From: a virus
Length of the DNA stretch: 25,429 nt
Reading direction: 5' to 3' (one strand)
Virus record (IMG/VR): IMGVR_UViG_3300023170_000158
Span: 1 to 25,429 of that record
Part shown: positions 2,013 through 24,313 of the stretch, one piece after another
Layout: the number at the start of each line of letters is the position of its first letter
Numbering within the stretch: the first letter of the stretch is position 1
Program-made: the position numbers and the translations under genes
Notes under the pieces: model-generated
Seen by the model: only the letters and a program-made list of their open reading frames with translations
The model's database searches: none
What the model was told of the DNA's origin: nothing

Positions 2013-2351
2013 ATGAAAACACAAAGTGCAAAAGCAAAAGGTAGAAGACTTCAACAAGAGTTTCGTAAACTTCTTATCGAAGAATTAAATATACATCCTG
2101 AAGATATTGAAAGTCGTTCAATGGGTGCAGGTGGTGAAGACTTAATTATGGCACGTGCTGCCAGAGAGAAATTTCCATATTCAATCGAAGCAAAAAATGT
2201 TGAAAAGTTAAATGTTTGGTCAGCATATGAACAGGCAGAATCAAACAAAGGTAATTATGAACCTATCGTTGTGATGCGAAAGAATAATAAAAAGGCATTA
2301 GTTGTTATTGATGCTGAATATTTTGTGAAATTACATAAAGATAATGAATAA
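2013..2351 (+). CDS. PD-(D/E)XK nuclease, Holliday-junction-resolvase-like
   Basis: 112 residues. A basic N-terminus (KAKGRRLQQEFRKLL) is followed by a core of the PD-(D/E)XK type: a conserved-looking Glu near residue 17, GGED with D43, and the metal-binding pair E59 and K61 in IEAKN, then a helix with Gln74. Size and motif order resemble archaeal Hjc-type resolvases and small phage endonucleases. Likely roles are resolving branched phage DNA or degrading host DNA; the substrate is inferred. It starts 2 nt after the previous stop and overlaps the first glycosyltransferase by 8 nt, so it links the nucleotide-metabolism block to the sugar cassette. Confidence 0.7.
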   Translation: MKTQSAKAKGRRLQQEFRKLLIEELNIHPEDIESRSMGAGGEDLIMARAAREKFPYSIEAKNVEKLNVWSAYEQAESNKGNYEPIVVMRKNNKKALVVIDAEYFVKLHKDNE

Positions 2352-3012
2352 AACATTTATTACAGGTGTAGATAGTACACACGAATGGTTATTGAAGTGG
2401 TGGTATAAAAAATTAGTTGCAAACAATCCCGACATTCATGTAACTATTTGTGATTTTGGTATGTCTGATCATGTTCGTCAATGGGCACAAACACACGCCG
2501 ATCATTTCATTACATATCCTAAACATCCTCAAAATGCATGGTTTCACAAAACACAATGTTTAATTGATAGTAAGTATGAATGTACTTGTTGGATTGATGT
2601 TGACTGTGAGATATTGAAAAACATACAAGATGTGTTTGATTATGCACAACCAGGTAAGATATGTCTAACAAAAGATTGGGTTAGAGAAGGTGCAAGACCA
2701 AATCAAACTTGGTGGGCAACAGGTTTTAATCTCATTAAAGGTTATTCTGATTTATTATATGATTGGCATAGTATTTTAAAACAAGCAAAAGTTCGTGGTG
2801 ACCAAGAAGCATTACACGAATTGATGATGAATAATCCTGTACGAAATAAAGAAGTCATTGAACTACCACAAATCTATCAATGGTTGAGAATCTCATTACA
2901 AAAAGGACAAGACACACCAGAAAAACGAGTGATGCATTGGACAGGTCCTGTCGGTAAGAAACATATTAAAGAAAGGTTAATGAATGAAGACGATAACAAT
3001 TTTAACACCTAG
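2344..3012 (+). CDS. GT-A glycosyltransferase, GT8-like
   Basis: 222 residues. Residues 82-90 contain a hydrophobic strand ending in the DxD-type motif IDVD (D85, D87), which in GT-A enzymes binds the metal and nucleotide sugar. The C-terminal HWTGP segment resembles the His/Gly metal-binding end of GT8-type enzymes. W127 and neighbouring residues (TWWATGFN) fit the acceptor side of such folds. There is no signal peptide or membrane segment, so it should act in the cytoplasm. It is the first of three consecutive glycosyltransferase-like genes, overlapping the next by 29 nt. The sugar and acceptor are unknown. Confidence 0.65.
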   Translation: MNKTFITGVDSTHEWLLKWWYKKLVANNPDIHVTICDFGMSDHVRQWAQTHADHFITYPKHPQNAWFHKTQCLIDSKYECTCWIDVDCEILKNIQDVFDYAQPGKICLTKDWVREGARPNQTWWATGFNLIKGYSDLLYDWHSILKQAKVRGDQEALHELMMNNPVRNKEVIELPQIYQWLRISLQKGQDTPEKRVMHWTGPVGKKHIKERLMNEDDNNFNT

Positions 3013-3712
3013 TCGTAATCGACCACAAAGACTAGATACGTTTGTTCGTTCTGTCTATGAAACTGCTGATAAACCTGAACGAATTGAAATTCTAAATTAT
3101 ATTGACAGTGATGATCCTGCAATAAAAGAATATAAAGAATATGAAGACACTTATGTCAAAGAAATGTATGAGTTATTAAACTTTAGAAATCTTTATGGAC
3201 CACCAATGTCAGTATCAAAATCATGGAATGAACTAGCAAAAATATCATTAGGTGATATAATGATTATGGGTAATGATGATTTAATATATAGAACAGAGTA
3301 TTGGGATACAACAGTAGAAAATGAATTAAGAAAATATCCAGACAACATTTACTGTGCCTGGTTTGAAGATAAAATTAACGGACCAAAACATTGTGCATTT
3401 CCAATTATAAGTCGAACATGGTATGAAACGGTTGGTTATTTTGCACCAGGTGTATTTAACTTTGGATATAATGATACATGGGTATTTGATATCGCAAAGA
3501 AAGTTGGTCGAACACATTTTATCAAAGATGTTGTAGTAGAACATATGCATTTTAGTAAACAAAAGGCAGAGTTTGATGATACCTATGCAAGAAATCGAAC
3601 ACAAGAAAAAGGTAATCTTTATGCAAAAGATAAGATTATCTTTGAAGATACAGACAAACAAAGACAAGAAGACGCAAATAAATTAAAAGATATAATTAAA
3701 AGAAGTTGGTAA
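2984..3712 (+). CDS. Glycosyltransferase family 2-like protein
   Basis: 242 residues. The N-terminus (TITILTPSRNRPQRL) is the typical first beta strand and loop of GT2 glycosyltransferases. Residues 92-100 (IMIMGNDDL) carry an NDD in place of the DxD metal/nucleotide-sugar site. A later VEHMHF segment offers the usual third metal ligand region. The C-terminal about 40 residues are charged and helical. It overlaps both neighbours (29 nt upstream, TAATG downstream), so it is clearly part of the operon. The product could decorate a surface glycan, virion protein or DNA base; the sequence does not decide. Confidence 0.75.
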   Translation: MKTITILTPSRNRPQRLDTFVRSVYETADKPERIEILNYIDSDDPAIKEYKEYEDTYVKEMYELLNFRNLYGPPMSVSKSWNELAKISLGDIMIMGNDDLIYRTEYWDTTVENELRKYPDNIYCAWFEDKINGPKHCAFPIISRTWYETVGYFAPGVFNFGYNDTWVFDIAKKVGRTHFIKDVVVEHMHFSKQKAEFDDTYARNRTQEKGNLYAKDKIIFEDTDKQRQEDANKLKDIIKRSW

Positions 3713-4503
3713 TGTATAAGATCGCAGTATATAGAATACACTATGGATTAGATTTTTTAGAACAATCTGTCAAGTCTATCATTAATGATGTTGATTGGGT
3801 TTATATTTTTCATTCATCATATCCTTGGTCAAAAAGACAATCACTATCTTATCTAGGTGAACATATTAAACTACCTAAATTAGAAGAAAATGTTGAATCT
3901 TTTGTTGATCAAAAATTTCATAATAAAATAACATATGTTGCAAAAGAATATGAAAAACCAGATAATCAATATGCCGATATGTATCATTATATTAGAAAAC
4001 ATTATCATAGTCAACATCCACAGACTTTGATGATGGAACCTGATATGGTATTTGCACCAGGTGACGCAAAGAAATTACTAGAATATGAAGGTCCTCATGT
4101 GAGTACAAAACAAATTGAATTGTGGAAAGGTATGCATCATCGAGTTCCACAAAGAGAACGAGTGGGTCCTACTTTATGGAATGAAGAACCTAAAACAACT
4201 TTAAAAGGAACATATCAAAATATTATAGTTCATCCTACAATACAGAATTATAATTTTGGTTTTTGTTTATCAGAAAAGATTATGTTGTATAAACATTTAG
4301 TCGCAATTATGGGTTCTAGGGACATAGGAGATTCTATACCAAATGAACGATGGTATGAAGATAAATGGTTAAATTGGAAACCAGAAATGACAGATTTAGA
4401 GATTTGTGAAAAACACAAAAATCACATTAAACAAATAGAAAAGTTTGACCCACCGTCAAACATATTGGAGTATATGAATGGTTTTGAGAATAAAGGAATA
4501 TAA
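3712..4503 (+). CDS. Glycosyltransferase-like protein (GT-A type, tentative)
   Basis: 263 residues, from the ATG in TAATG (3712); the in-frame TTG at 3706 is less likely. An opening beta strand (KIAVYRIHYGLDFLEQSVKSI) and a central hydrophobic strand ending in EPDMVF, which could serve as a DxD-like motif, suggest a GT-A fold. The rest is rich in His, Trp and Tyr, as often seen in carbohydrate enzymes. I do not recognise a named family. It lies between a GT2-like gene and a radical SAM gene whose start is nested 26 nt inside its 3' end. Confidence 0.55.
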   Translation: MYKIAVYRIHYGLDFLEQSVKSIINDVDWVYIFHSSYPWSKRQSLSYLGEHIKLPKLEENVESFVDQKFHNKITYVAKEYEKPDNQYADMYHYIRKHYHSQHPQTLMMEPDMVFAPGDAKKLLEYEGPHVSTKQIELWKGMHHRVPQRERVGPTLWNEEPKTTLKGTYQNIIVHPTIQNYNFGFCLSEKIMLYKHLVAIMGSRDIGDSIPNERWYEDKWLNWKPEMTDLEICEKHKNHIKQIEKFDPPSNILEYMNGFENKGI

Positions 4504-5836
4504 CGAAGTACGAGTTATAGACCAGGATCATGTGAAGATTGGTTTATACGAGAAAGAAGGACAATACGTTATTCATCGTTATGCGGCTAGAGGAAAGATT
4601 AACAACTTTGTTGCAAACTATGAATTTATTGATAACAATAACGTATCACATTTAAAACCGATTGATTTAGAACACGGTAATAAAATATTAGACAAAGTAG
4701 AAAAAGGTGTTAAATATTCAAACATCTTTATTTTTTATGATGAAAAATCAGATGATACTAAACTACCTGATGAAAGAAGTGAACAAGAACACAAATACAC
4801 ATCAACAGGTATTAAGTTCTGGCGTCACCAAGAACAAATGTTTAATTATAAGAATGGTGATCCCAATACAATTATTTCTACTCACATATCTCCTGAAGGT
4901 GCTTGTAATTTAAAATGTCCCTATTGTAGTGTGACATACAGAGATACACATAGTCGTATACCAATGGAGATTATTCAGGACTATGTAACAAAATTAAAGA
5001 CGAGAGGCTTAAAGGCAGTCATATTAACAGGTGGTGGAGAACCAACTGCATATAAACATTTTAATGATTTAGTGCGTTGGTTGAAATCACAAGACTTATC
5101 AGTTGCATTAATTACAAATGGTTCTGAACAGTATTGGAAACGCATCGATGAAGATGTTTGTAAGATGTTTTCATGGGTTCGTGTTTCAATTAATGTATTT
5201 AAAGATTGGGATAAAAGAATAGGATTGCCTTTAGAAAAATTTGATACAGAAAAAACAGTGATCGGTTGTTCAATGGTCTATACAGTTGAACATGAACTGT
5301 CTGAAGAAGTGATGGCAGATAGAGTTGGTTTATTAAACAAAGTGTCTAAAGTTGCTGATAAATGTGGTGCAAAATATATTCGTATGTTACCGAACTGTTT
5401 ATTAGAACAAGAACATTTGATTCGACAACACAAGTCATTAGACAATGTTTTAGAACAAATTGATGACACAAGATTCTTTCATCAATACAAAGTACATGGT
5501 GCTCCAAAATCTGGTGTATGTCACCAATCATACTTTAGACCATATCTGAGTGAAGAAATACACAAAGAAACAGGTGTTGCAGGTACAGTCTATCCTTGTG
5601 ATAGTGTTGTATTGAATGATACTTATCAGTTCTTTGCTGAAGAATATCAACTGTGTCATGCAAGTGATATCTTAGATTACTTAGATAAAAAGATTAAACC
5701 AAAGTTTGATCCGAGAGAAAGATGTAAAGGTTGTGTCTTTACAGATAATGTTAATATGTTAGATGATTGGGCAAATGGTAAAATCGATAGATTTGACGAG
5801 TTCAAAGACCCATTGATGCATGAGGAGTTTGTATGA
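4478..5836 (+). CDS. Radical SAM enzyme with SPASM/twitch-like C-terminal cysteines
   Basis: 452 residues. The radical SAM cluster motif CNLKCPYC places the iron-sulfur ligands at C143, C147 and C150; GGGEPT (residues 185-190) is the SAM-binding GGE motif. About 140 residues precede the radical SAM barrel. The C-terminal part contains C348, C374, C393, C416 and C419 (CKGC), a spacing suggestive of a second Fe-S cluster as in SPASM/twitch proteins. These enzymes modify peptides, sugars or other molecules by radical chemistry. GGAG at 4467-4470 sits 7 nt before this ATG. Its place between glycosyltransferases and a sugar dehydrogenase suggests a sugar or glycan substrate, but a peptide substrate is also possible. 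Few phage operons of this type are familiar to me. Confidence 0.85.
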   Translation: MVLRIKEYNEVRVIDQDHVKIGLYEKEGQYVIHRYAARGKINNFVANYEFIDNNNVSHLKPIDLEHGNKILDKVEKGVKYSNIFIFYDEKSDDTKLPDERSEQEHKYTSTGIKFWRHQEQMFNYKNGDPNTIISTHISPEGACNLKCPYCSVTYRDTHSRIPMEIIQDYVTKLKTRGLKAVILTGGGEPTAYKHFNDLVRWLKSQDLSVALITNGSEQYWKRIDEDVCKMFSWVRVSINVFKDWDKRIGLPLEKFDTEKTVIGCSMVYTVEHELSEEVMADRVGLLNKVSKVADKCGAKYIRMLPNCLLEQEHLIRQHKSLDNVLEQIDDTRFFHQYKVHGAPKSGVCHQSYFRPYLSEEIHKETGVAGTVYPCDSVVLNDTYQFFAEEYQLCHASDILDYLDKKIKPKFDPRERCKGCVFTDNVNMLDDWANGKIDRFDEFKDPLMHEEFV

Positions 5837-6462
5837 TCAAAGCAGATTATTATGATGAGAATTATTTTGAACGTGGTGCTGAAGTGGGTAAATCTTTATA
5901 TTCACACTATCGTTGGATGCCTGAACTCACAATACCAATGTGTCATCACATTGTACAGTATTGTAATATCAAAAACGAGAAAGTATTAGACTTTGGTTGT
6001 GCCAAAGGTTTCTCTGTTTATGCATTACGATTATTAGGTATCAATGCATATGGTGTTGATATGTCAGAGTATGCAATTAGTGAGGCACCAAGGGCAATAG
6101 AAAAACGAGTTAAAGTAATAAAACAATATGAAGATTTTGATCAACAGTATGGTTTAATACTTGCAAAAGATGTCTTAGAACATATACCATATGAAGATAT
6201 AGAAAAACAATTAAGAATATTTTATCGAAGTGGACAGAAAGTCTTTATCATTGTACCACTTGGAAGTGACGGAAAATATTTTATAGATAGTTATGAATCA
6301 GATAAAAGTCACTTTATACGAGAAGACTTAGATTGGTGGACTAAACAAGTAGAGGATGTCGGTTATACAATCACAAAATCAACATATGATTTAGGACCAT
6401 TTAAAAAGAACTGGCAGTTCAATCCAAAAGGCAATGGATTAATTATAGGAGAAAAGAAATGA
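5833..6462 (+). CDS. Class I SAM-dependent methyltransferase
   Basis: 209 residues. Motif I (KVLDFGCAKGFSVYAL, residues 50-65) is the glycine-rich SAM-binding loop, followed by a strand ending in GVDMS, whose Asp binds the SAM ribose. LAKDVLEHIPYED matches the post-strand-4 motif common in small-molecule methyltransferases (methyltransferase type 11/23 group). A target-recognition domain of the DNA methylase type is not evident and there is no NPPY motif, so adenine or cytosine DNA methylation is unlikely. It is coupled to both neighbours by ATGA overlaps. Methylation of a sugar or of a radical SAM product is a reasonable inference. Confidence 0.8.
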   Translation: MIKADYYDENYFERGAEVGKSLYSHYRWMPELTIPMCHHIVQYCNIKNEKVLDFGCAKGFSVYALRLLGINAYGVDMSEYAISEAPRAIEKRVKVIKQYEDFDQQYGLILAKDVLEHIPYEDIEKQLRIFYRSGQKVFIIVPLGSDGKYFIDSYESDKSHFIREDLDWWTKQVEDVGYTITKSTYDLGPFKKNWQFNPKGNGLIIGEKK

Positions 6463-7646
6463 AAGTTGGATTTGTTGGTCTAGGAAACTTAGGTAGAGAA
6501 GCTGCCGAAGTCATGGCCGAGCATTATGATGTTATAGGATATGACATTAGAAAAGTAGAAACTACGATTAAAGTATCAAGTAGTTTACAACAAGCAGTAG
6601 ATGATAGAGATATAGTATTCTGTGCTGTGCAAACACCACACGATTCAGACTATGACGGAAGATATCCGACAAGTCATTTACCACCAAAAGATTTTGATTA
6701 TAGTATAGCGATTAATGCTATACAAGAAATTGATAAGTATGTCAAACCAGAAACAATGATTGTTTTAATTTCAACTTGTTTACCTGGCACTGTAAGAAAT
6801 AAGATTGCACCACTAGTAAAGACTGGTCGATTCATTTACAATCCATATTTAATTGCTCAAACAACAGTGAAATGGGATATGAAGAATCCTGAAATGATTA
6901 TTATCGGTACAGAAAACGGAACTGAAACAGATGAGGCATTAGAGTTATTTAATTTCTATAAACCAATCTGTGAAAGAAATACACGAGTAGAAATTGGTAC
7001 ATGGGATGAAGCAGAAGCAATTAAGATTTTCTATAATACTTTTATCACTACAAAATTATGTTTAGTAAACATGATCCAAGATTGTGCGATGAAAGTTGGA
7101 AACATCAACGTTGACATTGTGACTACTGCATTGAAAGATTCGACAATGAGAATCATGGGTCCAAGTTATATGAAAGCAGGTCTTGGTGATGGTGGTGGAT
7201 GTCACCCACGAGATAATATTGCTTTAAGATGGTTGGCACAAGAATACAACTTTGGTTATGATATCTTTGATGCAATTGTTCAAGTCAGAGAACTACAAGC
7301 AAAAGAAATGGCAAAGTTTATGGTCGAACAAAACGAGAATGAGATAGTCATTCTTGGTACAGGTTTTAAACCAAAGACAGATCAGTTACATGGGTCACCT
7401 TCTATACTTGTAGGATATTATTGTGAACTATTGGGTAGAAAGGTACACTATACCAATGACACAAAGAACATTGAACCAGATTTAGAGAATAGTAAATACA
7501 CATATCTCTTAGGACATTTTGACGGTACATATGATGATTACAACTTTGCAATTGATTCGACAGTCATTGATCCTTGGAGAACATTTAAAAACGAATCCAG
7601 ACCAGATTTAAAGGTCATTCCTTACGGAAATACACGTAAAAAGTAA
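6459..7646 (+). CDS. UDP-glucose/GDP-mannose 6-dehydrogenase-like protein
   Basis: 395 residues. The N-terminal Rossmann fold has GLGNLG (residues 7-12). The central STCLPGTV (105-112) and a lysine at about 189 (EAEAIK) match this family. The nucleophilic cysteine sits in GGGCHPRD (C248). The usual motif is GGxCFPKD, so His replaces Phe and Arg replaces Lys. A C-terminal UDP-binding-like domain contains GTGFKPKTDQ. The family oxidises UDP-glucose, UDP-GlcNAc/ManNAc or GDP-mannose to uronic acids with two NAD+. It ends the sugar cassette; a terminator-like hairpin follows within 20 nt. SD-like AGGAG at 6447-6451 lies upstream of the ATG. The exact sugar is not determinable. Confidence 0.85.
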   Translation: MKVGFVGLGNLGREAAEVMAEHYDVIGYDIRKVETTIKVSSSLQQAVDDRDIVFCAVQTPHDSDYDGRYPTSHLPPKDFDYSIAINAIQEIDKYVKPETMIVLISTCLPGTVRNKIAPLVKTGRFIYNPYLIAQTTVKWDMKNPEMIIIGTENGTETDEALELFNFYKPICERNTRVEIGTWDEAEAIKIFYNTFITTKLCLVNMIQDCAMKVGNINVDIVTTALKDSTMRIMGPSYMKAGLGDGGGCHPRDNIALRWLAQEYNFGYDIFDAIVQVRELQAKEMAKFMVEQNENEIVILGTGFKPKTDQLHGSPSILVGYYCELLGRKVHYTNDTKNIEPDLENSKYTYLLGHFDGTYDDYNFAIDSTVIDPWRTFKNESRPDLKVIPYGNTRKK

Positions 7647-7662
7647 TAATATATTACGAATT

Positions 7663-7705
7663 GGGGGTGTGCAGATTGTCGCACCCTCAAAACCCCTTAT
7701 TTTTC
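7663..7705 (+). terminator. Putative terminator after the sugar cassette
   Basis: A 9-bp stem with two G-T wobbles pairs 7663-7671 with 7680-7688 around an 8-nt loop. A T-rich run (TTATTTTT) follows about 8 nt downstream, further than in a textbook intrinsic terminator. The CCCC at 7693-7696 could pair instead with the G run, moving the stem next to the T run. It lies between the end of a long operon and a new promoter, which supports a terminator role. Confidence 0.5.
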
Positions 7706-7740
7706 AACAATAATAAACTCAAAAAAATTTAAAATAATTA

Positions 7741-10391: not shown

Positions 10392-10695
10392 AGAAGTAAA
10401 ACCGTTAGAAATGATACACAGAGAATGGTCAGAAATGAAAGATTCTGATTCAGAAACTATTATCAAATGGTTAAAGAAACATCAACGTATGGAATTACCG
10501 TATGACATTAAGTGGGATAATCTTATTCGATTTAATGAAACTGGCAATTGGCCGATAATTGTAAAAAGAAAATCAAAAGAAGATAATTTGAATGATAAAG
10601 AAGAAAATCTTTATGAACAAATTATGGCAGATGATGTTGGATTAACAGATGCCGAAGAAAGTTTAAGTGATGAGGAACTTGAAGCTATTCTTTAG
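10384..10695 (+). CDS. Unrecognised small acidic protein
   Basis: 103 residues from ATG 10384, which has GGAG (10373-10376) 7 nt upstream; an in-frame ATG at 10378 is an alternative. The protein is charged and predicted helical, with an acidic C-terminus (DAEESLSDEELEAIL). The lipoprotein gene that follows starts 26 nt inside its 3' end. No recognised family. Confidence 0.65.
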   Translation: MPKEVKPLEMIHREWSEMKDSDSETIIKWLKKHQRMELPYDIKWDNLIRFNETGNWPIIVKRKSKEDNLNDKEENLYEQIMADDVGLTDAEESLSDEELEAIL

Positions 10696-11161
10696 TATTA
10701 TACTTGCAACAACTTTAATTGGTTGTTCACAGAATAGAAATGTATCAAGTCATTTTGGTGCTGTAGTCGGAGGTGCAAGTGCAGGTGCTTCGTGTTATCA
10801 AATGATATCCGAGAATGTTGCCTTTGTAGCAACGTGTGCCGTGTTAGGTAGTTTTGTTGGTGCAGAATTGTTTTATAAATCAGACAAGAATATACACAAT
10901 GCTGTTTTTGTAGATCATCTAAATACTTCTCCAACAAAACCAAGTTACACGACATGGTTTAATCCTAGAACAGGAAACAATGGTGATATTAAGATTACAA
11001 GAACTTATGTAATTAACTCTGGTATGAAGTGTTCTGATTATCAATCGACTGTAAATATAGAAATGCAGTGGCCATTGTCAGGTATTGATCGTTCAACAGA
11101 ATTTGGAACAGCGTGTCAACATCCAGATGGTGTGTGGGAGGTAGTTAATGCGACATCTTAA
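10670..11161 (+). CDS. 17-kDa surface antigen-like outer-membrane lipoprotein
   Basis: 163 residues from ATG 10670. The signal peptide ends in the lipobox LIGC, making C19 the likely lipidated cysteine. Residues 29-70 form a Gly/Ala-rich glycine-zipper segment (AVVGGASAGAS). The C-terminal domain has the pattern C-x-DYQ, then FGTAC-x-HPDGVWEVV, which resembles the rickettsial/alphaproteobacterial 17-kDa surface antigen family. It should be anchored in the host outer membrane. A phage version could alter the surface, block superinfection or help envelope stability; this is inference. It opens a run of four envelope genes. Confidence 0.7.
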   Translation: MRNLKLFFSIILATTLIGCSQNRNVSSHFGAVVGGASAGASCYQMISENVAFVATCAVLGSFVGAELFYKSDKNIHNAVFVDHLNTSPTKPSYTTWFNPRTGNNGDIKITRTYVINSGMKCSDYQSTVNIEMQWPLSGIDRSTEFGTACQHPDGVWEVVNATS

Positions 11162-16022: not shown

Positions 16023-16601
16023 ATGAACATATTTTACTTAGATGAAAATCCTAAAACCTGTGCAGAAATGCATTGTGATAAACACGTTGTAAAGATGATT
16101 GTTGAATATGCTCAAATACTTTCAACTGCTCACAGAATGTTAGATGGCACTAAATATATAGGAACTACCAAAACAGGTAGAAAAGCAACAAGATACAAAT
16201 TACCAGATAACTTAGAAAATATTGTTTACAAAGCGTGTCATTATAATCACCCTTCAACTGTTTGGGCTCGTACTTCTAGTCAGCACTATAACTGGTTGTA
16301 TGAATTGTGGCGTGAACTATCAGCAGAGTATCGACATCGATATGGAAACCAAAAAGGCAAAGATCACTCCAGCTGGACGTTGCTTGGTGACATACTAAAA
16401 CATACTCCAACAAATTTAGAAGACAAAGGTTTTACAGAACCACCACAGGCAATGTCACATTATCCAGAATGTAAAGTTGATGGTGATTCTATACAGGCAT
16501 ATAAGAACTACTATATAATCGCAAAGAAAGAATTTGCAAAATGGACGAATCGACAGATTCCAGAATGGTACACACATGGACTTACAACAGAAACTATTTG
16601 A
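16023..16601 (+). CDS. Conserved phage protein with CDKH motif, unknown function
   Basis: 192 residues. The N-terminus (MNIFYLDENP, then MHCDKHVVKMIVEYAQ and LSTAHRMLDG) is a pattern I know from conserved but uncharacterised phage proteins. The many His and Cys residues (C18, H21, H37 and a later CHYNHPS) could bind metal. PPQAMSHYPECK and WYTHG near the C-terminus also look conserved. It begins 8 nt after a perfect -10 hexamer and overlaps the ACP gene by 26 nt. No enzyme class can be assigned. Confidence 0.75.
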   Translation: MNIFYLDENPKTCAEMHCDKHVVKMIVEYAQILSTAHRMLDGTKYIGTTKTGRKATRYKLPDNLENIVYKACHYNHPSTVWARTSSQHYNWLYELWRELSAEYRHRYGNQKGKDHSSWTLLGDILKHTPTNLEDKGFTEPPQAMSHYPECKVDGDSIQAYKNYYIIAKKEFAKWTNRQIPEWYTHGLTTETI

Positions 16602-16809
16602 AATAATAACACCTTACACTGAAGACGGTATTGAACTTGATTCCCATTTCATTGATGATTTGGGTTTCGATAGTCTAACAGTTGTAGAATTTGTTATGCA
16701 ATTGGAAGATGAGTTTAATATAGAAATAAATGATAATGAAGTGTCACAAATTGCTAGAGTAAAAGATTCATTAAAAATATTAGAAAGTAAAATAAATGCC
16801 AACATATAG
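16576..16809 (+). CDS. acpP: Acyl carrier protein
   Basis: 77 residues from ATG 16576, the usual ACP length (about 78). The phosphopantetheine site is GFDSL with S33, followed by the helix TVVEFVMQLEDEFNIEI, nearly the textbook ACP helix II and loop. The protein is acidic, as expected. No synthase, acyltransferase or holo-ACP synthase is nearby, so it would depend on host modification. Roles could be redirecting host fatty-acid flux, lipidation or supporting glycolipid synthesis; all inferred. The neighbouring genes overlap on both sides (26 and 14 nt). Confidence 0.85.
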   Translation: MDLQQKLFEIITPYTEDGIELDSHFIDDLGFDSLTVVEFVMQLEDEFNIEINDNEVSQIARVKDSLKILESKINANI

Positions 16810-19319: not shown

Positions 19320-19659
19320 TCTTGCAATCATTATATTTTTATTAGATGTTTATGTATTTCAAGCAGAAGCAAGAACATTTTCAGATGAATTTAACGAAAC
19401 ATTTACAAACACAAAAGAAGTTACTCTCTTTTGTGGTAACATCGATAAAGTCGCTTACTTTATGGGTTATCACTTCGAGTTATTACCTGTATCTATTGGT
19501 GAAGGTTATGATATCCTTGAAGGTAAAACAGAAAAAGTCTTTCTTGCGGCTTCTAAGGACTTAAAGAAAATCGCAATATTGGTTATGAATGATAACAATG
19601 AATTATGTGTTCAATCAATCAGTGTGAAACACGAAATGTATGAAAATTCTACCGACTAG
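19300..19659 (+). CDS. Small exported protein of unknown function
   Basis: 119 residues. The N-terminal signal peptide is MKRIIFSLAIIIFLLDVYVF, with a likely cleavage after AEA near residue 25. The mature part is small, with C45 (LFCGN) and C106 that might form a disulfide. No family recognised. It overlaps both neighbours, so it is expressed with the exonuclease and the first GT42-like gene, perhaps acting in the periplasm. Confidence 0.7.
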   Translation: MKRIIFSLAIIIFLLDVYVFQAEARTFSDEFNETFTNTKEVTLFCGNIDKVAYFMGYHFELLPVSIGEGYDILEGKTEKVFLAASKDLKKIAILVMNDNNELCVQSISVKHEMYENSTD

Positions 19660-20182
19660 CGATAAAGTTATTGTCATTGGTAATGGCGTTAGTAGAAAAG
19701 GTTTTGATTTATCACAATTCAATAATGAATGTGTGATTGGTTGTAATGCACTACACAGAGATTACACACCAACATACTTAGTTGTTTGTGATAATCGAAT
19801 GTATGAAGAAGTTTTATATTCTGATTACATTAAAACAAATTGGGTATTCTTTCGAAGCATTATGGGATTTAATAATGATAGACGAAATAGTGGTAAAACA
19901 GAAATAAGTCCTCCTGAAAATGCAAAAGATTTAAAAGAATATATCAATGATGAAGGTCAAGGTTCTGGAATATGTGCCTTGAGATTAGCAGTCACTATGA
20001 AACCAAAAGAGATTCATATGTTAGGATTTGACTTTGGTGGACATAACATTTACGAGGGTACAAATGGTTATCCGAAACAAGCATACAAACAAATAACAGG
20101 AACAAATTGGAGAAGAGGATTTGAAAAGATACGATTGAAAAATTCTCACATTCAATTTATTGACATATTAAACAAAATATGA
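19640..20182 (+). CDS. GT42 sialyltransferase/DUF115-like protein, copy 1
   Basis: 180 residues. The opening strand-loop GNGVSRKGFDL (residues 14-24), then GCNALHRDYTPTY (34-46), and a central GSGICALRLAV followed by EIHMLGFDF (near 108-132) follow the motif order of GT42 enzymes (Campylobacter Cst proteins: GNGPSLKEID, then SGVYMCAVA, then SGIDFY). The DUF115/MptE-like family shares this fold. Known GT42 enzymes transfer sialic acid from CMP-sialic acid. The catalytic His-containing C-terminal region is short here, so the activity is uncertain. Two paralogues lie at 22001 and 22621. Its end carries the promoter at 20160. Confidence 0.6.
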   Translation: MKILPTSDKVIVIGNGVSRKGFDLSQFNNECVIGCNALHRDYTPTYLVVCDNRMYEEVLYSDYIKTNWVFFRSIMGFNNDRRNSGKTEISPPENAKDLKEYINDEGQGSGICALRLAVTMKPKEIHMLGFDFGGHNIYEGTNGYPKQAYKQITGTNWRRGFEKIRLKNSHIQFIDILNKI

Positions 20183-21420: not shown

Positions 21421-22016
21421 TGGATGGATTTGAAGTATATAAAACGTATCTAGCAATCAAACTACATTTTAGTAGAGAAGATTATAATATAGATCAATAT
21501 AATGGAAAGACAAGAGCGACATATGAATCCTTTAATAAAAGAAATGATCGTTTCTTTTTTCACAGAGTTGCAAAAAAACATAAAAGTGATATTATGGATT
21601 TTCTTGTGTCTGGTTTTGTCACTAACAACACTACATGGGTTGGAGACCTCAATTCATCAACAGCAGATCAAAAGTATTTACAATATGTTAAAAGACGAGA
21701 TGGTTTCACATATTACTTCAAACTTGATATGTCACATTTAATTAAAAAAGCAAATGGTGATTTTAATAAAATATTTAAATGTCATAAAGGTCAACACCCA
21801 ATTCTATTAAAAAGTTTTCTAGCAAAAAAGATAGGATTAGATACCATGTCAGTATTACAAACTATGTTTAATTACTGTAAAAAGTTTGATAAAGAAATTG
21901 AAGAACAAATAGTATGGCCTAAAGTGAGTTTATTAGTTCGTAAATATACTTCATTTTTAAAAGATAAAGATTATATTAAATTGAAAAAGGTGATTAAGGA
22001 ATGCGTAGTTTCGTAA
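21420..22016 (+). CDS. 59: gp59-like helicase loader
   Basis: 198 residues (T4 gp59 217). VYKTYLAIKLHF, then RFFFHRVAKKHK, FLVSGFVTNNTTWVGDL and the C-terminal VWPKVSLLVRKY follow the T4 gp59 pattern (VYKLYLMIKQH, KYFFQKLSEKYK, NLVANQDAWIGD, VWNNYSIKLKAY). gp59 loads the gp41 helicase onto gp32-coated forks. It begins at a TAATG overlap with thyX. The basic, helical composition fits DNA binding. Confidence 0.9.
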   Translation: MDGFEVYKTYLAIKLHFSREDYNIDQYNGKTRATYESFNKRNDRFFFHRVAKKHKSDIMDFLVSGFVTNNTTWVGDLNSSTADQKYLQYVKRRDGFTYYFKLDMSHLIKKANGDFNKIFKCHKGQHPILLKSFLAKKIGLDTMSVLQTMFNYCKKFDKEIEEQIVWPKVSLLVRKYTSFLKDKDYIKLKKVIKECVVS

Positions 22017-22624
22017 TAGCAAACGGTACCAGTCGTCAAGGATTTGATTTGAACATACTATCAATGTATGGTAAAACTTATGGGTGTAATGCATTGTATA
22101 GAGATTTTACACCTGATTATATTGGTGGTATTGATCGACCAATGATTGATGAAATGGTGAGAGAGGGTGTCTGGCAGAACTCAACGATGATTTGTAAACA
22201 TATGTATCCTGGTTCTTTTGATCCTTTTCCTCGTGCAAAATTATATGTGAAAACATTTAAACAAGCATTAGGTTATGACAAACATTATGATACAGGACAA
22301 ACAATGTTAGATTATGCATCTCAACATTTACAAGAAGGTGAAATCTATATGCTTGGATTTGATTTAACAAATTACATAGAACAAAGTCAAAGAAATATTG
22401 ATAATAAAATAGACAATGTTTATGCAGGTACTGATTGTTATGCATCACTAGACGCTGCCGAAAAATATTGTGGTAAATGGATAAATGAAATGAAAGAGAT
22501 ATTTTCTTTAAATCAAAAAATAAATTATTATCGTGTTGGTGCATCAATCAAACCGAATGAATTTAATTTAATTAACAACTTATATCATATCAATTATGAT
22601 GAGTTTATGGAGAAATTGAAATGA
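22001..22624 (+). CDS. GT42/DUF115-like protein, copy 2
   Basis: 207 residues. The N-terminus repeats the family pattern: ANGTSRQGFDL (residues 7-17), YGCNALYRDFTPDY (27-40) and a DRPMID acidic segment; the middle has TGQTMLDYA, then EIYMLGFDL. This is clearly related to the genes at 19640 and 22621. The glycine after the first strand is kept but the first Gly of GNG is Ala. SD-like AAGGA (21995-21999) precedes the ATG closely; it overlaps gp59 by 16 nt. Likely a cytoplasmic nucleotide-sugar enzyme, donor unknown. Confidence 0.6.
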   Translation: MRSFVIANGTSRQGFDLNILSMYGKTYGCNALYRDFTPDYIGGIDRPMIDEMVREGVWQNSTMICKHMYPGSFDPFPRAKLYVKTFKQALGYDKHYDTGQTMLDYASQHLQEGEIYMLGFDLTNYIEQSQRNIDNKIDNVYAGTDCYASLDAAEKYCGKWINEMKEIFSLNQKINYYRVGASIKPNEFNLINNLYHINYDEFMEKLK

Positions 22625-23463
22625 AAAGATTGTTCTTAATAGGTAATGGTGAAAGTCGAAAGAACTTTGATTTGAATTTACTCAACGGTAAAGGTAAAAC
22701 CTACGGTTGTAATGGATTACATAGAGATTTTACACCAGATGCTTTAACTTGTGTTGATCCAGGAATTACACATGAAGTTTATGATAAGGGTTATGCAAAA
22801 GATAATGTTTGTTATTATCGAGGATGGACTTCACTGCCAGGTGATTTATATGAAAATATGAAATCAACACACATAGAAGATATGACAGGTCGTTTTGGTT
22901 ATGAACCTAAACTTGTAGAAAGTGAACGATATGAAGGATCAACTGAATTTGTCATACATGGTTCGACTGCATTATGGCAAGATAAACTATTAGAAGAAAA
23001 AAGACCATACAAAGGTATCGGTGCAAATGTGTTATTCATCTCTTGGTTACATCCGAAAGATAAAGTAACACGAATAGATGACATCATGGATTTAAATGAT
23101 GGCACAACAGGAGATTGTGGATGGTCGGCAGGTCCAACTGCAATGAATATTGGTTGTAAAGTAGAACAACCAGAACAAGTTTTTATGATCGGGTGTGACT
23201 TATATTCTAACACAGACAATTTTAATAATATGTACAAGAGCACACTTCATTATGAAAGAGATGATATCGCCGCTGTCAATCCAGTTAATTGGTTAAAACA
23301 ATATGCGGCTGTTATGTTAACAAATTCAAATACAGATTTTTACAAAGTAAATGAAAAACCATTAGGTAGTGATAACATAAACAAAGAAATACCTGAATGG
23401 AACGACTTGATTAATATAAACTATATCACACAAGAGGAACTTATCAACAAGTTTCTAATCTAA
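22621..23463 (+). CDS. GT42/DUF115-like protein, copy 3 (longest)
   Basis: 280 residues. GNGESRKNFDL (residues 8-18), YGCNGLHRDFTPD (28-40) and CVDPG match the other two copies; later GWSAGPTAMNIG and VFMIGCDLYSN correspond to the second motif region. It is about 75-100 residues longer than its relatives, the extra residues lying between the two motif blocks (residues about 90-150) and containing FVIHGSTALW. The length is closer to bacterial GT42 enzymes. It starts at an ATGA overlap with copy 2 and ends the operon before the outer-membrane gene. Confidence 0.6.
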   Translation: MKRLFLIGNGESRKNFDLNLLNGKGKTYGCNGLHRDFTPDALTCVDPGITHEVYDKGYAKDNVCYYRGWTSLPGDLYENMKSTHIEDMTGRFGYEPKLVESERYEGSTEFVIHGSTALWQDKLLEEKRPYKGIGANVLFISWLHPKDKVTRIDDIMDLNDGTTGDCGWSAGPTAMNIGCKVEQPEQVFMIGCDLYSNTDNFNNMYKSTLHYERDDIAAVNPVNWLKQYAAVMLTNSNTDFYKVNEKPLGSDNINKEIPEWNDLININYITQEELINKFLI

Positions 23464-23536: not shown

Positions 23537-24313
23537 ATGCAAAAATTAATATTAATTTTATCTGCTATGTTGATTTCAACATCTACATATGCAGGAGTAA
23601 CTGGTTCTGTTGGAGTTGATTTCTCCGAGAACTCAGCAGGCGATGTAATCGCAACTAAAGACATTGACTTGGATATTTCAAGTGATGTTGGATTTGCGTC
23701 TATCGCTGTTATTACAAACGCAAGTGATCAACTTGTCTTAGACGAGTATTCACTTGGTGTAAAATACACAAACGGTTCAATCAGTTATGGTGAACAAAGT
23801 GATATCTTTATCGGTGGTGGACTTGAAGTTGTTGGTGCAGACACACTAGCAAATCCAAGTGATGCTGGTGAAAGTATCATTGGTTCATACAACAATACCT
23901 CTGTAAGATTTTTATTTACAGACACAGGTACAGATGTAACTGATTTTGATACAGTACAATTAAAACATTCATTAGACGTAGGCAAACTAGGTCTTGCCGC
24001 TTCTGTCGATCACACAATCGATGGTGGTGACAATATCTATGCTGTTGAAGGAACTGTCGGTCTAGGTGCAGAAGCAACATTAACAACTGTTGCAACACAC
24101 GACAATTCGTTAACAGACAAAGTGGCATACGAATCAATCATCTCTACAAAGGGATTCTCATTATTCGTAAACGGTGATGAAGGTGATTGGTCACAGAACG
24201 CAGGTGCAGGTTATATCTCATCTTACAAATCAGTTGACTGGTATGTAGAAGCAGGATACAATATGGATTCTAAAGACGTAACACCAGCTGCTGGAGTATC
24301 TGTTAATTTCTAA
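23537..24313 (+). CDS. Outer-membrane beta-barrel (porin-like) protein
   Basis: 258 residues. A clear signal peptide (MQKLILILSAMLISTSTYA) cleaves after A19. The mature part is Gly/Asp/Ser-rich with alternating hydrophobic residues through many beta strands, and the protein ends in VSVNF, the C-terminal aromatic signal for BAM-dependent outer-membrane insertion. No virion role is evident. Phage-encoded porins are known to change host permeability or receptors. AAAAGGAAAA precedes the ATG. It is a single-gene unit with its own terminator. Acidic surface segments (SENSAGD, DTGTDVTDFD) suggest loops. Confidence 0.75.
   Translation: MQKLILILSAMLISTSTYAGVTGSVGVDFSENSAGDVIATKDIDLDISSDVGFASIAVITNASDQLVLDEYSLGVKYTNGSISYGEQSDIFIGGGLEVVGADTLANPSDAGESIIGSYNNTSVRFLFTDTGTDVTDFDTVQLKHSLDVGKLGLAASVDHTIDGGDNIYAVEGTVGLGAEATLTTVATHDNSLTDKVAYESIISTKGFSLFVNGDEGDWSQNAGAGYISSYKSVDWYVEAGYNMDSKDVTPAAGVSVNF

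Follow-up and report, generated by a model that had tools for sequence, protein, structure and literature searches.

Among radical S-adenosylmethionine (SAM) enzymes, BtrN and SpeY carry four C-terminal cysteines of the twitch type, and aminocoumarin-type deoxysugar tailoring involves a carbamoyltransferase and an O-methyltransferase. For the pelagimyophages, GT8 glycosyltransferases and a UDP-glucose 6-dehydrogenase have been described and a change to the host O-chain has been proposed (Zaragoza-Solas et al., 2020; PMC7029224); radical SAM cassettes in a variable region are mentioned there in passing. The present locus is an operon at positions 2344-7646 of the virus record IMGVR_UViG_3300023170_000158, a stretch of 25,429 bases (the window). 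The best DNA matches of the window are SAR11 phage HTVC008M and T4-like cyanophages, and it represents part of a genome of the pelagimyophage type. The operon encodes three putative glycosyltransferases (GT1, GT2 and GT3), a radical SAM enzyme (rSAM), a methyltransferase (MT) and a protein of the nucleotide-sugar 6-dehydrogenase type (UGD). Within it rSAM and MT form a near-obligate pair, which is the indivisible part of the cassette, and the operon as a whole is probably a phage-borne glycan-tailoring cassette that acts on a host-envelope or virion glycan. The paired genes are:

4478-5836, + strand: rSAM, with a CX3CX2C motif and twitch-type C-terminal cysteines (PF04055, 43.5 bits against a cut-off of 29.5; invariant columns; fold)
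5833-6462, + strand: MT, a class I SAM-dependent methyltransferase (PF13489, 40.1 bits against a cut-off of 27; phrog_27380, E 1.2e-62; pairing)

Both enzymes had been recognized in an initial annotation of this DNA and both are indeed present, although no specific methyltransferase family was assigned to MT by Pfam, NCBIfam and further profile searches. Homologues were collected by two scans with rSAM, giving about 50 close viral loci, and by one scan with MT, from which 79 loci were examined. MT adjoins rSAM on its downstream side in every close-family viral locus not truncated by a contig end, with the exception of L130/L137, where it lies two small open reading frames (ORFs) downstream. 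Seen from MT, 75 of the 79 viral loci have rSAM at most 1 kb upstream (in 5 of these the called MT start overlaps rSAM by 64-130 nt), three begin at a contig edge and one is without; among the testable loci rSAM is beside MT in 75 of 76. The sole MT homologue without a nearby rSAM is found at 3947-4618 of a 354-kb contig (L246). About 28 of the examined MT loci carry a second rSAM subfamily, typified by that of SynMITS9220M01 and including L250-L279, which is approximately 22% identical to the window rSAM. The pairing holds for this subfamily too and the linkage therefore outlasts deep divergence. Of 28 non-redundant rSAM loci in the close family, about 21 keep UGD, and rSAM is near only about 10 of the best 80 phage UGD homologues. 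The co-conservation that the initial annotation had put forward as a check on the set is thus borne out for rSAM and MT and only in part for GT1-GT2-GT3-UGD. The six genes were accordingly rejected as a single fixed unit, since UGD and the glycosyltransferases vary whereas the rSAM-MT pair stays.

The rSAM alignment spans the window phage, cyanophages, other viral contigs, a deltaproteobacterial metagenome-assembled genome (MAG) and an archaeal genome. Judged from its sequence, rSAM is a member of the radical SAM superfamily, in which C143, C147 and C150, all invariant, make up the CX3CX2C motif. Five further cysteines had been noted towards the C-terminus, and all are present in the window protein (348, 374, 393, 416 and 419); C348, C374, C416 and C419 are invariant across 15 divergent sequences, while C393 is replaced in some. 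The four invariant residues fit the twitch pattern C...GX4C...CX2C after the core (C348, GTVYPC374 and C416-KG-C419). This is the cysteine pattern of twitch enzymes, as found with a second Fe-S cluster, the cluster itself being predicted. A C-terminal HxxF motif (H448xxF451) is also invariant. Residues 1-98 form an N-terminal domain that is dispensable, being absent in L149, L240 and the second subfamily.

The AlphaFold model of rSAM (pLDDT 89.4) has SkfB (Z 17.6), BlsE (16.6), DesII (16.6), viperin (15.4) and BtrN (15.0) as fold neighbours, with the SuiB maturase also among the best matches; the longest alignment is that with DesII (317 residues, 12% identity). Differences in Z of less than 1 are ties, and the fold therefore suits sugar-acting and peptide-acting enzymes alike. 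That BlsE, DesII and BtrN, all of which act on sugars or similar small molecules, are among the nearest folds supports a role for rSAM in sugar modification. The maturases SkfB and SuiB, together with a GT3 fold nearest to the peptide S-glycosyltransferase SunS, would suit a pathway like those of ribosomally synthesized and post-translationally modified peptides (RiPPs), with rSAM modifying a ribosomal peptide and MT and the glycosyltransferases finishing it. Such a pathway is very unlikely, as the overlaps between GT3, rSAM, MT and UGD leave no space for a precursor, no recurrent small ORF accompanies the pair in relatives (ORFs of at least 60-70 aa examined) and the N-terminal domain of rSAM is dispensable. 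Assignment to the SPASM peptide maturases was rejected because their seven-cysteine set is absent, rSAM having four invariant cysteines and five in the window protein. Attachment of the sugar to a peptide, one of the options in the initial annotation, is thus left with no precursor gene in evidence.

The same core also resembles that of viperin, an enzyme type that produces a chain-terminating nucleotide: the pVip core profile matches rSAM (PADLOC, E 6.9e-14; NCBIfam, 40.5 bits), in keeping with the viperin fold match. However, the match is confined to some 100 residues in the core of rSAM and falls far under the cut-off of 180 bits, and the extra four-cysteine twitch pattern, the MT partner and the glycan neighbourhood set rSAM apart; a viperin-like function is extremely improbable, and membership of the viperin family was rejected. 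The BlsE cytosylglucuronate decarboxylases were rejected as a family for rSAM as well (23.5 bits against a TIGR04466 cut-off of 400).

The pair is centred on phages. Among 50,697 phage records rSAM was found only in HTVC008M (two), SynMITS9220M01 and one large uncultured phage (two, weak), and three records match MT. In cells rSAM is rare: the phylum of L032, a deltaproteobacterial MAG, has it in 1 of 297 genomes and the phylum of L033 in 2 of 156. At E 1e-40 it was found in 0 of 297 genomes from the order of a SAR11 genome, and a further phylum sample (query A7) gave 0 of 299, both sets being without a positive control. An origin as a host-derived auxiliary gene was rejected, given that rSAM is absent or rare in the cellular genome samples (0/297, 1/297 and 2/156). 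Tentatively, and with less confidence than attaches to the glycan-tailoring role, rSAM and MT are proposed to be an undescribed phage-centred unit, rare in cells, for a radical transformation of a sugar together with methylation. No description of the pair was found in the literature searched, and searches on radical SAM enzymes with O-antigen or twitch, and on phage radical SAM enzymes with carbamoyltransferase, returned nothing relevant.

The other features of the operon and its borders are:

2013-2351, + strand: RusA-like/PDDEXK resolvase-type nuclease, overlapping GT1 by 8 nt (phrog_244, E 5.5e-22; PF24608, weak; synteny)
2344-3012, + strand: GT1, a GT8-like (glycogenin-like) putative glycosyltransferase with DxD and HWTG motifs (weak profile match; conserved columns)
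2984-3712, + strand: GT2, a family-2 glycosyltransferase (phrog_14945, E 1.9e-57; PF00535, E 5e-4)
3712-4503, + strand: GT3, a GT-A-fold putative glycosyltransferase with an invariant ExD (ExD columns; predicted fold)
6459-7646, + strand: UGD, a divergent nucleotide-sugar 6-dehydrogenase (PF00984; PF03721; UDP-glucose dehydrogenases in the PDB, E 6e-28; catalytic Cys)
7661-7690, + strand: 3' hairpin at the operon end (fold energy and z-score)

Three GT-A-like glycosyltransferases had been proposed, and they fare differently. On its PHROG match GT2 is a clear phage glycosyltransferase, with the PF00535 match lying below the family cut-off. The GT1 family profile weakly matches glycogenin (GT8) in the PDB (E 0.011), and its conserved columns include DVDC and HWTGPxGK; as GT1 has no Pfam match and none over a family cut-off, it is labelled GT8-like only. 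No sequence family was matched by GT3 in Pfam, PHROG and profile searches. Its predicted model (pLDDT 89.8) has GT-A enzymes as top Foldseek matches (E 1.6e-6), with SunS first, but the TM-scores against GT-A structures are low (0.41-0.47), and because they stay below 0.5 GT3 is regarded as only a putative glycosyltransferase. In UGD both PF03721 and PF00984 are above cut-off (53.9 and 63.7 bits), and the catalytic Cys is invariant within GGGCHPRDN. The C-terminal UDP-binding domain PF03720 (16.5 against 30) and TIGR03026 of NCBIfam (140.4 against 189.8) are under cut-off, and the UDP-sugar 6-dehydrogenase of the initial annotation is therefore better described as UGD-family-like than as a UDP-glucose dehydrogenase proper.

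All six ORFs were found between 2344 and 7646 as annotated, and each overlaps the next: GT1/GT2 by 29 nt, GT2/GT3 by 1 nt (TAATG), GT3/rSAM by 26 nt, and rSAM/MT and MT/UGD by 4 nt each (ATGA). The proposed coupling is thereby confirmed, except that the overlap of the RusA-like gene with GT1 means that the coupled unit begins before 2344. This upstream gene, which is syntenic in relatives, is probably outside the pathway. The terminator-like hairpin proposed for the 3' end is a stable fold (-20.1 kcal/mol for 7643-7712, z -3.75). It is not among the calls of a strict terminator scan, and since a T run follows only about 16 nt past the stem it is not a canonical intrinsic terminator.

The gene neighbourhoods of relatives show the company that the pair keeps. 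HTVC008M has the cassette as in the window with, in addition, a Nol-like carbamoyltransferase, an NAD synthetase and a 2OG-Fe(II) oxygenase. Many relatives also keep the NAD synthetase gene (gp161; L001 12602-13360) next to UGD and MT, and its product could serve in NAD+ supply or in amidation of a uronic acid. Elsewhere the pair is found with GDP-mannose dehydratase and an epimerase (L152), an epimerase (L141), TylF-type methyltransferase and heptosyltransferase-like genes (L025), RmlD-like, DegT aminotransferase, GDP-mannose dehydratase and cytidylyltransferase genes (L271), and heptose genes with a carbamoyltransferase homologue (SynMITS9220M01). An archaeal relative of rSAM (L195) lies in a glycan-type locus with UGD, DegT and epimerase-like genes and a membrane protein that is PMT-like as judged by eye; an MT-family gene (30%) is about 1.5 kb, or one gene, away and not adjacent. 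These neighbourhoods, in many phages and in the archaeal glycan-type locus, make the sugar-modification reading of the initial annotation well supported.

In the window cassette UGD would oxidize C6 of a nucleotide sugar to give a uronic acid, a step for which other phages may supply GDP-fucose-type or other sugars instead. The 5'-deoxyadenosyl radical of rSAM, with the auxiliary cluster as an electron relay, would then alter a ring position of the sugar or nucleotide sugar, and by analogy with BtrN, DesII and BlsE this change may be an oxidation, epimerization, deoxygenation or decarboxylation. MT would methylate the product, which GT1-GT3 would then attach to an acceptor. This acceptor is most likely a glycan in the envelope of the infected host cell, such as the O-chain or the lipopolysaccharide (LPS) core. 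Such a change to the envelope would alter phage receptors and superinfection. Under the more tentative proposal of an undescribed rSAM-MT unit, phages would plug the pair into varied nucleotide-sugar pathways, giving a modified glycan that is not host-encoded.

Several observations weigh against a glycan-tailoring role. The pair of the deltaproteobacterial MAG L032 (rSAM 52%, MT 35%, adjacent, with the gene order reversed) has no sugar operon immediately around it, and the cassette is without a flippase, polymerase or ligase. The best structural match of rSAM is the RiPP maturase SkfB, tied with BlsE and DesII, and neighbourhoods cannot separate a sugar from another rSAM substrate. The distance matrices of rSAM and MT are correlated (r 0.80, n=28 loci, 0/2000 permutations), which speaks for the pair, but the distance correlations with GT3 and UGD are 0.87 and 0.76 over 19 loci; as rSAM-GT3 and MT-GT3 correlate no less well, the signal reflects in part the shared ancestry of whole loci. 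The correlation was not accepted as proof of co-evolution, the pair not being singled out by it.

The same enzymes could also act on a virion protein, by glycosylation of the capsid, neck or tail fibre, and the pair is indeed near structural-looking genes in some relatives (L149, L265 and L251). This acceptor is unlikely, since in pelagimyophages the cassette sits in a nucleotide-metabolism region, next to nrdB and the RusA-like gene, and the published view prefers the host O-chain (PMC7029224).

A further alternative is hypermodification of the phage DNA, in which the sugar is built and then put on a modified base. The main hint of this is in HTVC008M gp156 (L001 7207-8298), a GT2 extended at its C-terminus by a ParB-like domain (phrog_620, E 4.5e-7). 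In addition, GT2 shows weak similarity to the N-terminal part of phrog_2675, a family of phage DNA methyltransferases, a DNA methyltransferase-like gene lies two genes downstream of MT in L019, and T4-like RB69 arabinosylates its own DNA (PMC6024577). The ParB-like tail is, however, absent from the window GT2. A PF00303-type hydroxymethylase was not found in HTVC008M or its 146-kb relative G004 by a search that detected that of T4, and a search without a strong positive control gave no Tet/JBP match. Among over 100 SAR11 genomes, restriction-modification is reported for just one (PMC7029224). Without a thymidylate-synthase-type hydroxymethylase in these two genomes, the attachment to a DNA base offered in the initial annotation is disfavoured, and a role in DNA hypermodification is distinctly unlikely.

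Other genes of the window may be mentioned. Three related phrog_30607 proteins (19640-20182, 22001-22624 and 22621-23463, the last two adjacent and overlapping) are weakly similar to the alpha-2,3-sialyltransferase and MptE-like families; in L022 a homologue occurs close to those of UGD and GT1, and they may therefore be part of the same glycan system. The product of 16534-16809 resembles acyl carrier proteins (PF00550, 42.9 bits) and has a phosphopantetheine site of sequence DSL, and 16023-16601 has a distant match to Pyr_excise (pyrimidine dimer DNA glycosylase; 24.6 bits against a cut-off of 23). A predicted secreted protein at 23537-24313, with no Pfam match, is porin-like by eye, and an outer membrane porin is annotated at another place in HTVC008M. 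The short secreted protein at 10667-11161 belongs to the 17-kDa outer-membrane surface antigen family (PF16998) and is possibly a phage-encoded envelope protein.

Few phages on Earth are as numerous as those of the abundant ocean bacterium SAR11 and of marine cyanobacteria, yet little is known of their effects on the host surface. If the proposed function is correct, the pair would be a new, nearly phage-only enzymatic tool for unusual sugars, and it offers a testable route to how phages might change receptors. Together with the C-terminal HxxF and the four twitch cysteines, it can serve as a marker for such cassettes in viromes.

With BtrN, SpeY, BlsE and DesII the window rSAM has the radical SAM core in common (fold Z 11.6-16.6), at an identity of 12-16% and with no curated family cut-off passed in the NCBIfam comparison; it is unlike them in its near-obligate MT partner, its invariant C-terminal HxxF and its phage-centred distribution. 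The HTVC008M cassette would allow carbamoylation and methylation of a sugar as in aminocoumarin-type tailoring, whereas that of the window is without the carbamoyltransferase. The likeness to DNA arabinosylation by RB69 lies in a T4-like phage with sugar metabolism and glycosyltransferases (PMC6024577), but the RB69 system needs hydroxymethylcytosine, and the hydroxymethylase family was not found in HTVC008M and G004. The LPS and O-chain genes of pelagimyophages and cyanomyophages are alike in that they include GT8 and a UDP-glucose 6-dehydrogenase and come from this group of phages; the passages of that work examined describe neither the pairing of rSAM with MT and its near-obligate nature nor the twitch-type cysteines (PMC7029224). 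That no phage pathway with this exact set has been described, as the initial annotation held, agrees with the literature searched, save for the passing mention cited at the outset. LPS-type genes were known in this pelagiphage group, and what is new is the rSAM-MT pair as the conserved core.

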